Source: Pseudomonadota bacterium (GTDB lineage Bacteria; Bdellovibrionota; Bacteriovoracia; Bacteriovoracales; Bacteriovoracaceae). Taken from it: 64,000 bases of DNA. The DNA is taken from positions 1-64,000 of the forward strand of contig JAIYDC010000081.1 of NCBI GenBank assembly GCA_027487685.1, in the 5' to 3' direction. The translations under genes were made by a program, and so were the position numbers. The notes beneath the pieces are model-generated. The model searched no databases and was not told where the DNA came from. It worked only from the letters and a program-made list of their open reading frames with translations. How positions within the stretch are numbered: the first letter of the stretch is position 1; each line of letters begins with the position of its first letter. This document shows, in pieces, positions 30,401-37,535 of the stretch.

Positions 30401-30428
30401 GAAAAAACCCCCGCTACAGCGGGGGTTT
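30401..30428 (-). terminator. Rho-independent terminator (possibly bidirectional)
   Basis: CCCCCGCTACAGCGGGGG flanked by A6 and T4. Confidence 0.85.
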
Positions 30429-30431
30429 TGA

Positions 30432-30644
30432 TTACTTTTCTTCAGAATTCAGCATCGCGGAATCAATAAAGGAGAGCATTGCGCTCCGCAGCTCTTCAAG
30501 GGATACTTGAGATCTGTCTTCACCCTTAAAAACCTCGTCCCTGATTAACTCAACCGGAAAACCGGTCAGATTGGCGAGCATTTCCAAGCTCACTTTTCCA
30601 TTCTTGTCTTCAGGTCCCATCATGGTCTGGTCACTCGTTGTCAT
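30432..30644 (-). CDS. Hypothetical 70-aa protein
   Basis: ORF with SD (CAAGGAG) and own terminator. Confidence 0.7.
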   Translation of the reverse strand: MTTSDQTMMGPEDKNGKVSLEMLANLTGFPVELIRDEVFKGEDRSQVSLEELRSAMLSFIDSAMLNSEEK

Positions 30645-30816: not shown

Positions 30817-31977
30817 CTAATACCCGGGTGTTCCGAGCAATGTTAGAAAGCTCGAGACCTTATTCTCCATTTCCTGAAACTCCTGGACTGGCCTGGACAA
30901 AAGAGTGATGCCTCCCCCTGCTCCGTATCTCCATAAGCGGTCACTCGCAGAGAGTGAGGCCGTCCTGATGTTAATGCTGGCAGATTTTCGCTCTCCGAGA
31001 CAGAGAAGAGTTGAGCCACAGTAGATGCCCCGTTGGTAGCGTTCGACCTCTTGTATGATCTGCATCACTCTTTTTTTAGGGGCTCCCGTCACACTGCCAC
31101 CCGGGAAAAGGCACTCGAGGGTTCGCCGCAGCCCGAGAGGGCGCTCTAGGTCCACCGCTAGAACAGAGCACTGGTGCAAGAGTCCTGGCACTCGCAAGCA
31201 AGCACGCTCCTTAAGAACCTTGGCGCGAGGCCGCTCCAGGCGATTGAGATCATTCCGGAGAAGATCGGTGATCATCGTCAGCTCCCCCTCCTCTTTCACA
31301 TCTCCAAGCATCTCTTGCCACTCCTTGCGCCAATTCTTCCCCACTCTCCGAGTGCCCTTGATCGGCATCGTCAGCATCCGGTTGCGATCGTACTGGAACA
31401 GGCACTCAGGTGAGTTACTAAGAATCATTTCATCGCCTAGGAATGTTCCGTGGGCGTAGGCACTGACTCCGGGACGAGAAAAGAAGAAGTCCGAAAGGTC
31501 ACGAGGGTCAATGAGCGCTTCGGTCTCAAAATCGAAGGGATAAGTCAGATTGACCTGGTAGCAGTTACCGTCCAGGAGATGATCTTGGATCCGGTGAAAG
31601 GCCAGCTTATACTCGCTCCAGGAAGGACGCTCAATCGAGCGAAGATGGACCTGCTTCAGCCGCGATTTGGGCAGGGCCTTTATTCTCTTGCGGCCAAACT
31701 CAAGCTCGATGGCCAGTGGTAACTCTGGCCCAACAGTATGTCCCAGGCCCATGAGGATCAGACCTAGCTCATAGTAGAAGTGATAAACGCGGGGCCTTTT
31801 CACTTTCTCCTGAATTGTTACCAACTCCAGTGAGGTGAGGAAGTTCTCCAGGGGATACGCCTCGGGAAAGCCTGTCAGAAGATTGAACCGGTGTTCCCGG
31901 TAATACACGTAAGCAACAGAGGCTTCCGAGAGCTCGAGGACCGCATCCCGGTTCCATTTGAACGTTGAGGTGATCAT
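30817..31977 (-). CDS. pabB: Chorismate-binding aminodeoxychorismate/anthranilate synthase component I
   Basis: IKGTRR, LTMITDLLRNDLNRL, FPGGSVTGAPKKRVMQIIQEVE. Confidence 0.9.
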   Translation of the reverse strand: MITSTFKWNRDAVLELSEASVAYVYYREHRFNLLTGFPEAYPLENFLTSLELVTIQEKVKRPRVYHFYYELGLILMGLGHTVGPELPLAIELEFGRKRIKALPKSRLKQVHLRSIERPSWSEYKLAFHRIQDHLLDGNCYQVNLTYPFDFETEALIDPRDLSDFFFSRPGVSAYAHGTFLGDEMILSNSPECLFQYDRNRMLTMPIKGTRRVGKNWRKEWQEMLGDVKEEGELTMITDLLRNDLNRLERPRAKVLKERACLRVPGLLHQCSVLAVDLERPLGLRRTLECLFPGGSVTGAPKKRVMQIIQEVERYQRGIYCGSTLLCLGERKSASINIRTASLSASDRLWRYGAGGGITLLSRPVQEFQEMENKVSSFLTLLGTPGY

Positions 31978-33326
31978 CAGGACTCGTGCTTCCCTTGAGG
32001 TGCGAGATCAGCAAACTTCGTCTGCGAACCGATCCAAGAGAGTTCGATGGTGCCCGGTTCGCCATTACGGTTTTTGGCAACAATAATTTCAGCAATCCCC
32101 TTCTTCGGCGTTTGAGCGTCGTAATACTCCTCGCGGTGAATAAGCAAGACGATGTTAGCGTCCTGCTCGAGAGAGCCCGACTCACGTAGATCTTGGAGCT
32201 GAGGACGCCGGTCGGTACGCGAAGCGGCGGTACGGTTGAGCTGTGAGAGGGCAACGACGGGAATCTCAAGCTCGTTGGCGAGCATCTTAAAGCCCCGCGA
32301 GAGCTCTGCGATCTCCTGCTCACGGTTCTGCTTTTTCACGTGCATCGGCATTATCTGGAGATAGTCGACCACGATCATGGCAAGGCCCTGCTCGGCCTTG
32401 AGTTTCCGGCAATAGGAGCGGATATCCATGAGGTTCGTTGAGCCAGAGTCGTTAATGTAGAGCTTAAGATTCGAGAGCTTCTGAACTGCACTGGCTATAG
32501 ATCGCAAGTCGAGCTCGTTAAATTCTTTGGTTTTGAGTTTACGGCCATCGATGCAAGCCTCGGAGGCCAGAAGTCGCATCGAAAGTTCGGCGTACATCAT
32601 TTCGTAAGAGAACACGGCGACCGCCATGTTGGTCTGTTTGGCAGCGGCCACGGCCCAGTTGAGCGCCAGGGCCGTCTTTCCCATACCCGGTCTGGCCGCG
32701 ATAAGGACCAACTGCCCCGGTTGAAGTCCCAGGAGGGAGCGGTCAATGGCCTGGAAGCCGGTGGAGACTCCCATGATCTCGCCCTTGGCCCGAGCTGGCT
32801 TCTCGAGTTCAGCGAGGTTCTCGAAGAGCGCCTGCTTGAGTGGGATCATCTTATTATTCTTGGTCTGCGCGGTTAACTTAAAAAAGCTCGCTTCCACGTC
32901 CTGAAGGAACTCCCCGACGTCTCCAGAGAAGTTCGTCCCGGTGGAAGCGACTCGGGTCGCAGTCCGGACAACCTCACGGAGCATGCTCTTTTGCTTAATG
33001 AGCTGAGCGTAGTACTCGACGTTCGCAGCAGAGCCCACTTCATCACAGATCGTGATCAGGGCCGTTTGCCCTCCGATGCGTTCGAGCTTTCCGTGATCGT
33101 TGAGCTTACTGGCGACAGTGACGATATCAAAGGGCATCCCTTCCATGAAGAGGTCTTTGATGGACTGATAGATCACGCCATATTGCGGGTGATAGAAATC
33201 TCCGCTATCGAGATTAACGTCGGAGATCTCATCGAAGCTACGGTTATCGATCAGAAGGCAACCGAGGAGGGCCTTCTCAGCTCCGATGTCATGGGGTAAT
33301 TCGTTGCGATTTTCTTGCGCCATCAC
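31977..33326 (-). CDS. dnaB: Replicative DNA helicase
   Basis: LPHDIGAEKALLGCLLID, AARPGMGKTALALNWA, VVDYLQIM, LRESGSLEQDANIVLLIHREEYY. Confidence 0.97.
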   Translation of the reverse strand: MMAQENRNELPHDIGAEKALLGCLLIDNRSFDEISDVNLDSGDFYHPQYGVIYQSIKDLFMEGMPFDIVTVASKLNDHGKLERIGGQTALITICDEVGSAANVEYYAQLIKQKSMLREVVRTATRVASTGTNFSGDVGEFLQDVEASFFKLTAQTKNNKMIPLKQALFENLAELEKPARAKGEIMGVSTGFQAIDRSLLGLQPGQLVLIAARPGMGKTALALNWAVAAAKQTNMAVAVFSYEMMYAELSMRLLASEACIDGRKLKTKEFNELDLRSIASAVQKLSNLKLYINDSGSTNLMDIRSYCRKLKAEQGLAMIVVDYLQIMPMHVKKQNREQEIAELSRGFKMLANELEIPVVALSQLNRTAASRTDRRPQLQDLRESGSLEQDANIVLLIHREEYYDAQTPKKGIAEIIVAKNRNGEPGTIELSWIGSQTKFADLAPQGKHES

Positions 33327-33469: not shown

Positions 33470-34048
33470 TTACTCTTCTGTGCCGTTCGCAGCGGCTTCA
33501 GCTTCAGCAGCGGCCGCGGCCTTAGCAGCTTCGGCCTTCGCCTTTTTCTCAGCGTTGCGTCTCTGAGCTTCTGCCTGCTGGCGCTTGAGTTCCTCCGCCA
33601 TAGCGGCGTCGATAGAAACTTTGAGCTTGAATTCAGCAGTCACGTCGCTGAAGAGCTTCGCCTTCACATCGTAAGTTCCGAGAGACTTGATTGATCCGTC
33701 GAACTGAAGGAGACGGCGCTCAATCGACACGCCCTGCTTCTCGAGTTCTTTGACGATATCCTGAGATGTTACGGCGCCGAAGAGGCGACCGTTAGCGCCA
33801 ACTTTCTTGATCAATTCAACGGTTATGCCGTCGATCTTTGTCTTAATAGCTTGCGCAGTTGCCTTCTCGGCGAGAATTTTCTTAGCGAGACCTTTCTGCT
33901 TGTCCTTAAGGACGTTTGAGTTCTTCTCGTCGGCGAGGATTGCGAGCCTCTTAGGGAAGAGGAAGTTCCGGGCAAAGCCAGCGGATACATTAACGATCTC
34001 ACCGATCGTTCCGAGGGCCTTAACCTTTTCAGTGAGGATGACTTTCAT
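33470..34048 (-). CDS. rplI: 50S ribosomal protein L9 with Ala/Lys-rich C-terminal extension
   Basis: MKVILTEKVKALGTIGEIVNVSAGFARNFLFPKRLA; about 40-aa extension after the L9 core. Confidence 0.97.
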   Translation of the reverse strand: MKVILTEKVKALGTIGEIVNVSAGFARNFLFPKRLAILADEKNSNVLKDKQKGLAKKILAEKATAQAIKTKIDGITVELIKKVGANGRLFGAVTSQDIVKELEKQGVSIERRLLQFDGSIKSLGTYDVKAKLFSDVTAEFKLKVSIDAAMAEELKRQQAEAQRRNAEKKAKAEAAKAAAAAEAEAAANGTEE

Positions 34049-34062
34049 ATAATTCTCCTAAA

Positions 34063-35061
34063 TTAATCTTTGATGTTACGTTTCACAAAAAACTTTCTAA
34101 AATCAAACCAGTTATCGAACAGGCCTGCCACCGCAATGAGATAGCCACCGACGAAGATCGTTACCACCACGATAAGGGTCCGAAAAAAACCTACAATCCC
34201 GGCAAAGTTCAGGAGGTCACTAAAGACTCCAAAACCCTGAAAAAAGTAGAAGATTCCAAGACACTTCACCAGAGTAAGCCCGATCATTTCAAGGGATGGC
34301 CCTACCAGCTCTGCTCCCCAAACCGCAGCCGCTAGGCTCAGCGCGAGCAAAGCGACGAAGGCGAAGGGAACACGAAAGGTTAGGAGCTCACGCTCGGAAT
34401 ACGGATAATCGTTCCCTGAAAAGAGGAGCCGGCGGCTCTTCAAAACGAGGGACATGTTAAACCACAGCATCAGAAAGACCCCCATAAAGAAGTAGCTGGG
34501 AAATGATTGGATCATCTCCGCGGCCAGGAGGTCAGGGCGGTCTAGCAGCTGGAGGACCTGGATCGCGTCCTTGTCCCCACTTTGCTCCACCGCTTTCTTT
34601 TGCTCAGCGATTTTATCCGCACTCTTCTCAATCTGCTGGACGATAAACCCCGTTGGCGTCGTCTTCATTGTGGACAAGACCACGGCAAAGAGTCCTGCTA
34701 TCGACAGGATGAAGGTCATCCCGAAAGCAACAAGTCCCTTAACAGGAGCAATTCCCCGAAGAACGACTTCAGCAATGGCGGCGGCAAAAAGAGCGATACA
34801 AGCATAGAATCCGAAAAGCGTCAGATCTCCGTAGATGAACCCGGCCAGGCCAAAACTCAGGGCAAGCCCCGCGGCGAGAGTCAGGTACCCCTTTACCCTA
34901 CCGTACATGACGATGGCCAGAGCGAGTGGAAACGGAGCAAAGATCGCCATGATGAAACTCATGCACAAAATCACCGAAGAAGCGCCGAGAAGGAGCAACC
35001 TACTGGTAGAGAGTTGTGGGGATTGCATCACGTCGGTATTCATACCTGTTCTGGTCTCCAA
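34063..35061 (-). CDS. DUF2232-like multi-pass membrane protein
   Basis: Multi-TM ORF in rpsF/rpsR-rplI-dnaB synteny; C-terminal FLxFFQGFGV-like region. Confidence 0.8.
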   Translation of the reverse strand: METRTGMNTDVMQSPQLSTSRLLLLGASSVILCMSFIMAIFAPFPLALAIVMYGRVKGYLTLAAGLALSFGLAGFIYGDLTLFGFYACIALFAAAIAEVVLRGIAPVKGLVAFGMTFILSIAGLFAVVLSTMKTTPTGFIVQQIEKSADKIAEQKKAVEQSGDKDAIQVLQLLDRPDLLAAEMIQSFPSYFFMGVFLMLWFNMSLVLKSRRLLFSGNDYPYSERELLTFRVPFAFVALLALSLAAAVWGAELVGPSLEMIGLTLVKCLGIFYFFQGFGVFSDLLNFAGIVGFFRTLIVVVTIFVGGYLIAVAGLFDNWFDFRKFFVKRNIKD

Positions 35062-35670
35062 TTAGCGAGCGACTTCGTTTGACTGGTAGCTGATGAGGAG
35101 CATGTTACGACCGCGCTTGATGGCCTCATTTGCCCGGCGCTGGAACGTAGGTGTTAGGCCCGTAATCCGTGACGGAGAGATTTTACCAAACTCGTTAACC
35201 AGCCAAGAATAAGACTTCGGATCTTTCCAATCCGGAGACGTCTTTTTAGCAGAGAACCAGCAAGACTTGCGCTTAGAATGCATTTTCTTGTCTTTGTCTT
35301 CTCCACCGAACTCATCATCAATCGCAGCCGCTTGGGTGTGATTAGGGTTCTTGTAGTCTTTAACGATTTCGGCCTGGTGCTTATCTTCACCGAGCTTGAT
35401 GATGAGGTGACGAACAAGATGCTCGTTAATATGGAACCGACGCTCGATCTCTGCGTTCAGGTTTCCTTCACCTTTGTACATGAAGTAGTGGTAAGCGCCT
35501 TTTTTGAGGCCGCTTTCCGTAGGCTGAGCGAAAGTTTTCACTCCCCATGAATCAGTGATGAGAACTTCTGCACCGAACTGCTTGAACGTTTCAGTGAGAG
35601 CGTTCTTGATGGATGACACAGCTTCTTCCGATGCGTCAGGGCGAACGACAAATGCCGTTTCGTAGATCAT
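35062..35670 (-). CDS. rpsF/rpsR: Ribosomal protein bS6-bS18 fusion
   Basis: N-terminal S6 (MIYETAFVVRPDASEEAV...YHYFMYKGEGNLNAEIERRFHINEHLVRHLIIKL) continuous with S18 (MHSKRKSCWF...GKISPSRITGLTPTFQRRANEAIKRGRNMLLISY); AGGAGG SD before ATG 35670. Confidence 0.92.
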   Translation of the reverse strand: MIYETAFVVRPDASEEAVSSIKNALTETFKQFGAEVLITDSWGVKTFAQPTESGLKKGAYHYFMYKGEGNLNAEIERRFHINEHLVRHLIIKLGEDKHQAEIVKDYKNPNHTQAAAIDDEFGGEDKDKKMHSKRKSCWFSAKKTSPDWKDPKSYSWLVNEFGKISPSRITGLTPTFQRRANEAIKRGRNMLLISYQSNEVAR

Positions 35671-35690
35671 ATTTCCTCCTGGATCTAAGC

Positions 35691-35708
35691 ATTCACCACA
35701 CGGTGAAT
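35691..35708 (-). promoter_or_regulatory. Leader hairpin upstream of rpsF/rpsR (candidate S6:S18 binding element)
   Basis: Minus strand ATTCACC-GTGT-GGTGAAT, 7-bp perfect stem, containing CCG next to the loop. Confidence 0.5.
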
Positions 35709-35843
35709 ACATTTATTAAGAGCCCACAGAACTATTCCTGTGAGCGAGATGAAATACATTAAATGAATGTCTTCGGGAACTTAGCACGAGTGAGGAAGCT
35801 TAGTCTAAGCCTTTCTAGGGGGGGAATTAGACCTCTTCTCTGT

Positions 35844-37535
35844 CTAATTGCCTGAATTTTCTGGGGCAGGTTCTACTTTAGGCCTAAAAAACCTAGTGTA
35901 GTTCAGAATATAGCGGACGGATATCTGCTGAAACAGTGAGGTCTCAGGATCCTTGGATATATCCTGTTCACTGCCCTCGAAGTTGGCAAGGCCCTCCTCC
36001 ATCGTAGAGGCGGGAGTTGTTGCCACGGTCGCAGCAGGGTCTTCGGTCGAAACTGGCGAAGAATCACTACCAGCAGAAGGCATAGCGACGGCATCCCCGC
36101 CGGATTCTGCGACTGGCCCCGTTGGCCCTTCTTCTGGCTTGGTCTCTGATACGGCGGCTTCGCCCTTCTTATTGAGGTCTGAGAGGTTAAGACCTTTGAG
36201 CCCGAGTGACCTGTTAGCGCCGGCCTGCATGCTCGCGAGGGTCCGCTGCACTTCCTGGTCAAAGTTCAAAGGCTTCTTTTTCTGGGCCGCGCGCTGCTTG
36301 TTGATAGCGTCGAGGGCCGCGAGCTTTGCTTTTTCGACCCGCGCCGCTCCATTGGCAAGCTGCCCCGCCAGCACGTCGGCCCGGGCGGTGTCCCCAGCGT
36401 TGAGTGCGTTCGCAAAGTCGGTTGCTATGTTCGATTGTGAGCGGAGGGTATCGGTCCCGAAGTTCGCGCTAAAGTTGGGCCGGTTAAGCCGCAGGGGTCT
36501 CTGGCATGCCTTCTCTGAGAAAACAATCCCCGCGCCACCTGAGCTGACGCAGGACTTCACTTCAGGCTTGATGCCATCGGCGAGGAGGGTCACATCCCCG
36601 TTCTTGGATCCGCCGTTTACGCCTCCGTTTCCGCCGGAGGTCGAGCCACCATTGGCACCCGAGGTCGAACCGCCCGTACTTCCGGAGGTCGAGCCGCCAG
36701 TTTCCCCGACGCTATTCGTGTCTTGAGTCGCCTTGTTGAAATCTGCGAGGAGTTTCTCCATCTTTTTGATGTTGTCCTTTAGCTTGGTCTCGGAGCTCAT
36801 TAGGTCCATCAAAACGAAGCCGGCGATCGCCGTTGCGCCGCCGAAGATGGCTGCGCGCGAGTAAGGATTATTCATAGCGGTCGTGATTTGCGTGATGAGG
36901 CCAGGGATGACCAGTTCGAAGTACATCAATGCTCCTGCAATTCCGACGACTGCTGCGCTTCCGAGCATTCCGGTGCCACCCGCCTTAACTGAGAGGAAAC
37001 TGTAGGCAGCTATAATCGCGTACTTTGTCGTACTTACCGCCGCCACGCCTGGTCCAGTTGGACCGCATCCATCTGGGGTCAGACCCAACAGGCTCGAGCC
37101 CTCGGCGAGTGCTAACGCGGTGGCGACGCCGTAAGCGGCCGAGACCGCCATCATCCACATCTTCCGCTTCTGAACGAAAGCCAGCTGATCCTTTTCCTCT
37201 TTAAGCTTCGCCTCTAACGTAGCCTTCTGAAGGTCTCCGCCATTAGCCATGGTCTTCTTTACCTCGTCGACCTTCTGTTCCTGATCCTTATGGTGCTTCT
37301 TTTGCTGCTGACCTCCGAGGAGTTCCGCGGCGATGTAAGCCACGGAGCCGGCCATAAACACATAGATCGACGGACTCTTCGGAGCAAGACAGTTGAGAAT
37401 GATAGTCGAGCCGACAGCCGCGGTCCCAAGACCCAGCACCTGATTCGCAATCGGCCCCATGCTCATCGCGCGAGCAGAGTTCACAGGGGCTATGATGAGC
37501 ACAAAGCTTAGTATGATGGCGAAAAACTTATTCAT
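35844..37535 (-). CDS. Putative membrane protein with Gly/Ser repeat linker
   Basis: Signal peptide, several TM segments, GGSTSGSTGGSTSGANGGSTSGGNGG linker. Confidence 0.75.
   Translation of the reverse strand: MNKFFAIILSFVLIIAPVNSARAMSMGPIANQVLGLGTAAVGSTIILNCLAPKSPSIYVFMAGSVAYIAAELLGGQQQKKHHKDQEQKVDEVKKTMANGGDLQKATLEAKLKEEKDQLAFVQKRKMWMMAVSAAYGVATALALAEGSSLLGLTPDGCGPTGPGVAAVSTTKYAIIAAYSFLSVKAGGTGMLGSAAVVGIAGALMYFELVIPGLITQITTAMNNPYSRAAIFGGATAIAGFVLMDLMSSETKLKDNIKKMEKLLADFNKATQDTNSVGETGGSTSGSTGGSTSGANGGSTSGGNGGVNGGSKNGDVTLLADGIKPEVKSCVSSGGAGIVFSEKACQRPLRLNRPNFSANFGTDTLRSQSNIATDFANALNAGDTARADVLAGQLANGAARVEKAKLAALDAINKQRAAQKKKPLNFDQEVQRTLASMQAGANRSLGLKGLNLSDLNKKGEAAVSETKPEEGPTGPVAESGGDAVAMPSAGSDSSPVSTEDPAATVATTPASTMEEGLANFEGSEQDISKDPETSLFQQISVRYILNYTRFFRPKVEPAPENSGN

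Follow-up and report, generated by a model that had tools for sequence, protein, structure and literature searches.

Ribosomal proteins bS6 and bS18 are encoded as a single in-frame fusion in most Bacteriovoracia

The window analysed here, a whole stretch of 64,000 nucleotides, carries on its minus strand an rpsF-rpsR fusion gene (35062–35670; bS6-linker-bS18, 202 amino acids plus stop), whose translation runs without a stop across all 202 codons. A sequence-only reading had proposed that bS6 and bS18 are joined here in one in-frame fusion, and this was borne out by Pfam and NCBIfam, both domains being complete within one open frame. The bS6 domain (residues 1–95; 35386–35670, minus strand) matched Pfam Ribosomal_S6 (PF01250) at residues 3–92 (4e-19) over model positions 2–90 of 90, with 68.9 bits against a cut-off of 27, indicating a full-length bS6. 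Full length is also indicated for the bS18 domain (residues 130–202; 35065–35283, minus strand), which matched Pfam Ribosomal_S18 (PF01084) at residues 143–193 (5e-14; model 2–52 of 52; 52.5 bits, cut-off 21). NCBIfam models TIGR00166 and TIGR00165 scored 55.5 (cut-off 42.9) on the S6 part and 53.7 (cut-off 38.75) on the S18 part, respectively, and a search with the fusion protein found no NCBIfam model covering S6 and S18 together. The rpsF start codon at 35670 is preceded by a strong Shine-Dalgarno sequence, CCAGGAGG (35675–35682, minus strand), with a predicted anti-Shine-Dalgarno pairing of -10.3 kcal/mol. The predicted mass of the product, 23.2 kDa, agrees with the earlier estimate of about 23 kDa. 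A whole-genome search of the 149-contig assembly detected one S6 locus and one S18 locus, both of them the fused frame; a separate rpsR elsewhere in this genome was looked for and none was found.

The fusion gene is followed on the same strand by a DUF2232 membrane protein gene of the same operon (34063–35061; assigned by Pfam), by rplI (bL9; 33470–34048; Pfam and NCBIfam) and by the replicative helicase gene dnaB (31977–33326; NCBIfam), and the order fusion-DUF2232-rplI-dnaB is conserved in relatives. Upstream of rpsF lies a 563-residue frame without a Pfam match (35844–37535, minus strand). At 30401–30471, a GC-rich hairpin between A and T runs, on which several sub-threshold Rfam matches are stacked, looks like a bidirectional intrinsic terminator.

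Upstream of the Shine-Dalgarno sequence, a conserved leader hairpin was detected at 35722–35748 (minus strand; CTC followed by GCTCACAG...CTGTGGGC), with the consensus CTC-GC[T/C]...[G/A]GC in Bacteriovoracia, and we propose it as an autoregulatory element. Covariation was assayed over 48 related leaders in an alignment made without regard to structure, revealing 94.7% of cells paired. Double-sided changes numbered 107, as opposed to 34 after shuffling, and the covariation score reached 0.704, relative to 0.196 for the shuffled alignments and at most 0.24 for slid helices. No Rfam model matched at the leader at the thresholds used, and the hairpin is a candidate new ribosomal leader family. 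A second hairpin (GTATTCACC-GTGT-GGTGAATGC; 35689–35710, minus strand), located between the conserved one and the Shine-Dalgarno sequence, was seen only in the window and in its nearest relative (L038). E. coli has a structured RNA at the corresponding position, through which rpsF is repressed by the S6:S18 complex and by neither protein alone (PMC4647458), and a further S6:S18 leader has been described in Chlorobi (PMC7247131). As the E. coli complex acts in this way, and as the hairpin is conserved and covaries, the fusion is, by analogy, probably its own repressor, acting on its translation as the putative ligand of the leader hairpin.

The fusion extends far beyond the window. Among 130 genomes of the window's family, which corresponds to the Bacteriovoracia (Bdellovibrionota) judging by named records with the fusion, 121 contained an S18 match, exactly one in every case, so that no second rpsR was found in any of these 121. 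The sequence-only reading had also pointed to related genomes as a place to look for rpsF-rpsR fusions, and there the fusion was present in 115 of the 121, distributed over 41 of 46 genera. In 113 genomes the S18 frame is 203–252 residues long and S6 matches fall in equally long frames; every fetched locus of this length class showed the fusion on direct reading. Two further fusions (G033 and G137) are cut by contig ends only, with the linker visible, and separate rpsF and rpsR genes occur in five genomes from four genera (G026, G113, G114, G115 and G119). A scan with Bacteriovoracia-specific peptide patterns retrieved named records carrying the fusion from Bacteriovorax (sp. DB6_IX and BSW11_IV), Halobacteriovorax marinus and Bacteriovoracaceae, among them isolate records, not labelled as metagenome assemblies. 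Outside Bacteriovoracia, no fusion was found among the phylum's matches listed, whose S18 frames have at most 167 residues; for two large families among these, every S18 match was checked and all were within this length. The fusion is thus neither a sequencing error nor a one-off, since a frame open in 113 related genomes excludes chance or a missed stop.

Two genomes showed peculiarities of their own. In G126 (L112) the linker contains an in-frame TAA that no start codon follows before the S18 domain, an observation that counts against one uninterrupted chain there; it reflects either a sequencing error or a genuine stop subject to readthrough. G128 encodes, beside the fusion, another S6 that stands alone and differs in type (L246, G128:C102:487-744), possibly derived from a contaminating contig.

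The linker (residues 96–129; 35284–35385, minus strand) is predicted to begin as a helix continuing S6 and to pass into a disordered acidic/lysine stretch, with a net charge of -3. Within the genus, pN/pS was 0.20 for the linker, 0.16 for S6 and 0.07 for S18, and the value of 0.20 supports that the linker is selected as coding sequence. Across 93 distinct fusions it comprises 33–48 residues of variable sequence, charged and acidic in the middle. An AlphaFold2 model based on 35 family sequences exhibited two well-predicted domains (mean pLDDT 80.9, pTM 0.76), with pLDDT below 50 at residues 112–134, the presumably disordered stretch, and the S6 part matched solved S6 chains with a target TM of up to 0.91. 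In S18 of E. coli, residues K60, R61 and R63 contact the rRNA and the leader (PMC4647458). The equivalent residues in the window are K185, R186 and R188, of which K185 and R188 are invariant in the 35 fusions of the family alignment.

Three alternatives to one uninterrupted S6-S18 chain were considered. That an assembly or sequencing error took out a stop or a frameshift could be imagined for a genome in 149 contigs, but the probability is practically nil, as the identical frame is open in 113 genomes, isolates among them, and the linker shows coding-type selection; a missed stop or frameshift was accordingly rejected on the grounds of this conservation. Production of some additional S18 from the internal ATG at 35283–35281 (minus strand) is very improbable. 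This codon has a GGAG 17 nt upstream, as had been claimed, and each of the 26 distinct fusions from the window's genus carries an ATG where S18 begins, which would favour its use. Against it, the predicted anti-Shine-Dalgarno pairing just ahead of this ATG is only -1.2 kcal/mol, compared to -10.3 kcal/mol at the rpsF start, the corresponding codon in other genera specifies T, L, I, Q, A, K or R, and the linker contains no ATG in 42 of the 93 distinct fusions and no ATG, GTG or TTG in 30 of them. Moreover, the internal Met aligns with a Met (DKDRRMFSRKKSCWFC) inside unfused S18, whose start, with its own Shine-Dalgarno sequence, lies about 50 residues upstream; because the same Met is internal there, sequence homology marks it as an inherited residue rather than a former start codon. 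The earlier wording, that separate S18 initiation was possible but poor, was therefore right about the weak Shine-Dalgarno sequence, while "possible" fails for many relatives, whose linkers are devoid of start codons. Internal initiation was rejected on that account, and for the window itself the weak pairing and the Met homology argue that S18 is not separately initiated. Finally, one chain might be made and then cut in the linker, yielding separate S6 and S18 in the 30S subunit. The linker is predicted with low confidence, is probably disordered and has many Lys/Arg residues close to where S18 starts, all of which would give access to proteases; however, it varies freely in length (33–48 residues) and sequence with no obvious common cut-site motif, and its K/R-rich end belongs to S18 and is found in unfused S18 too. 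Cleavage hence appears improbable, if somewhat less so than internal initiation, and the uncut chain is the reading that we favour.

How this chain arose may be read from the linker and from the S18 cysteines. KNYKSPF and a few further residues typically form the C-terminus of unfused S6, and unfused S18 opens with an acidic extension whose last residues are DKDRRMFSRKK. In fused linkers, KNYKTPFSKKYNGS is typically followed by an acidic stretch, and this in turn by EKDRRxFSRRK. As both motifs thus appear in order, the linker looks like an S6 tail (YK-P) followed by the N-terminal extension of S18. The unfused S18 proteins (L101, L102, L103, L107 and L134) all have the long acidic N-terminal extension, a CxxC and a third Cys (5/5), and CxxC is found in S18 of many outgroups too. 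No fused S18 has CxxC, the second Cys of the motif being absent in all fused copies. The reduced Cys pattern noticed in the sequence-only reading is therefore present and marks fused copies within Bacteriovoracia, but it is not odd in itself, as S18 of E. coli and B. subtilis normally has just one Cys as well. Because CxxC was kept in unfused copies and outgroups and is absent from fused ones, a single fusion, later than the divergence of the unfused lineages, is favoured. The alternative, confined to the question of origin, is that there were several independent fusions or that some lineages re-split the gene. Parsimony on a quick DnaB+L9 tree required three changes, and in this tree the unfused L107 lies among fused rows, with non-starred support. 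Nevertheless, placing all fused genomes in one clade costs 9.6 log-likelihood units, and such a clade is not rejected (p-AU 0.357; DnaB+L9), and re-splitting would require regain of the CxxC shared by the five unfused S18s and many outgroups. We consider repeated fusion or re-splitting unlikely, although with a better chance than any of the alternatives concerning the protein itself; the tree does not resolve the matter, and the data are best explained by a single fusion of an S6 tail to an S18 extension.

S6 and S18 are separate chains in most other bacteria, and their free ends are modified in some. Our proposal, which we hold with considerable confidence, is that in most Bacteriovoracia one covalent bS6-bS18 protein replaces the two, with 1:1 synthesis, tethered assembly, a single origin and autoregulation. 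Translation would have a single start, the strong rpsF site, from which the ribosome would continue through a flexible linker of 33–48 residues into S18; with one start and one chain through both domains, S6 and S18 would be made 1:1. The S6-S18 protein would then arrive at the S15-16S rRNA platform like the ordinary heterodimer, but with its two halves tethered, and surplus protein would probably bind the conserved leader hairpin shortly before the Shine-Dalgarno sequence and block its own translation. In evolutionary terms, an in-frame junction between an S6 tail (YK-P) and a pre-existing acidic S18 extension would have created the fusion within Bacteriovoracia. The more specific hypothesis that the 30S subunits of most Bacteriovoracia contain the uncut chain, that the tether turns a secondary-binding heterodimer into a single unit of assembly and autoregulation, and that its appearance coincided with loss of the S18 CxxC seems likely to us, albeit with less assurance.

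S6 and S18 are a well-studied pair that dimerises before rRNA binding and jointly represses its own mRNA, and a natural fusion makes the role of the dimer testable in assembly order, stoichiometry control and autoregulation. It also allows the dispensability of free S6 and S18 ends to be addressed. The fusion furthermore constitutes a clear lineage marker for most of these predatory bacteria, and their unfused relatives preserve the likely pre-fusion state.

A literature search, with most subscription papers outside its reach, found no published S6-S18 fusion; entries for the fusion may already be labelled as multifunctional fusions in automated databases. We compared the Bacteriovoracia protein with known systems. 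In E. coli, bS6 and bS18 heterodimerise before binding the 16S rRNA-S15 complex (PMC4647458). The fusion shares both domains, over curated cut-offs, with stand-alone bS6 and bS18, as well as their adjacency and order in an operon that includes rplI, and it keeps the RNA-contact Lys/Arg of E. coli bS18; it differs in being one polypeptide without a free S6 C-terminus or S18 N-terminus, and in E. coli K-12 priB is located between rpsF and rpsR. Both the rpsF_leader of E. coli and the Bacteriovoracia leader are structured, covarying RNAs directly upstream of the rpsF Shine-Dalgarno sequence, the latter differing in its lack of an Rfam match at the thresholds used and in that its binding to the fusion is putative. 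The unfused Bacteriovoracia rpsF and rpsR share the neighbouring genes with the fusion, and the end of their S18 extension (DRRMFSRK) corresponds to the end of the fused linker, whereas they occupy separate frames with their own Shine-Dalgarno sequences and encode an S18 with CxxC and a third Cys. Finally, NCBIfam NF011110 (signalling protein / bL9) likewise links a ribosomal protein to a second protein in one gene product, but the partner of L9 there is non-ribosomal, whereas the Bacteriovoracia fusion joins two ribosomal proteins in direct contact. What appears to be new is the lineage-wide covalent form of two known ribosomal proteins.
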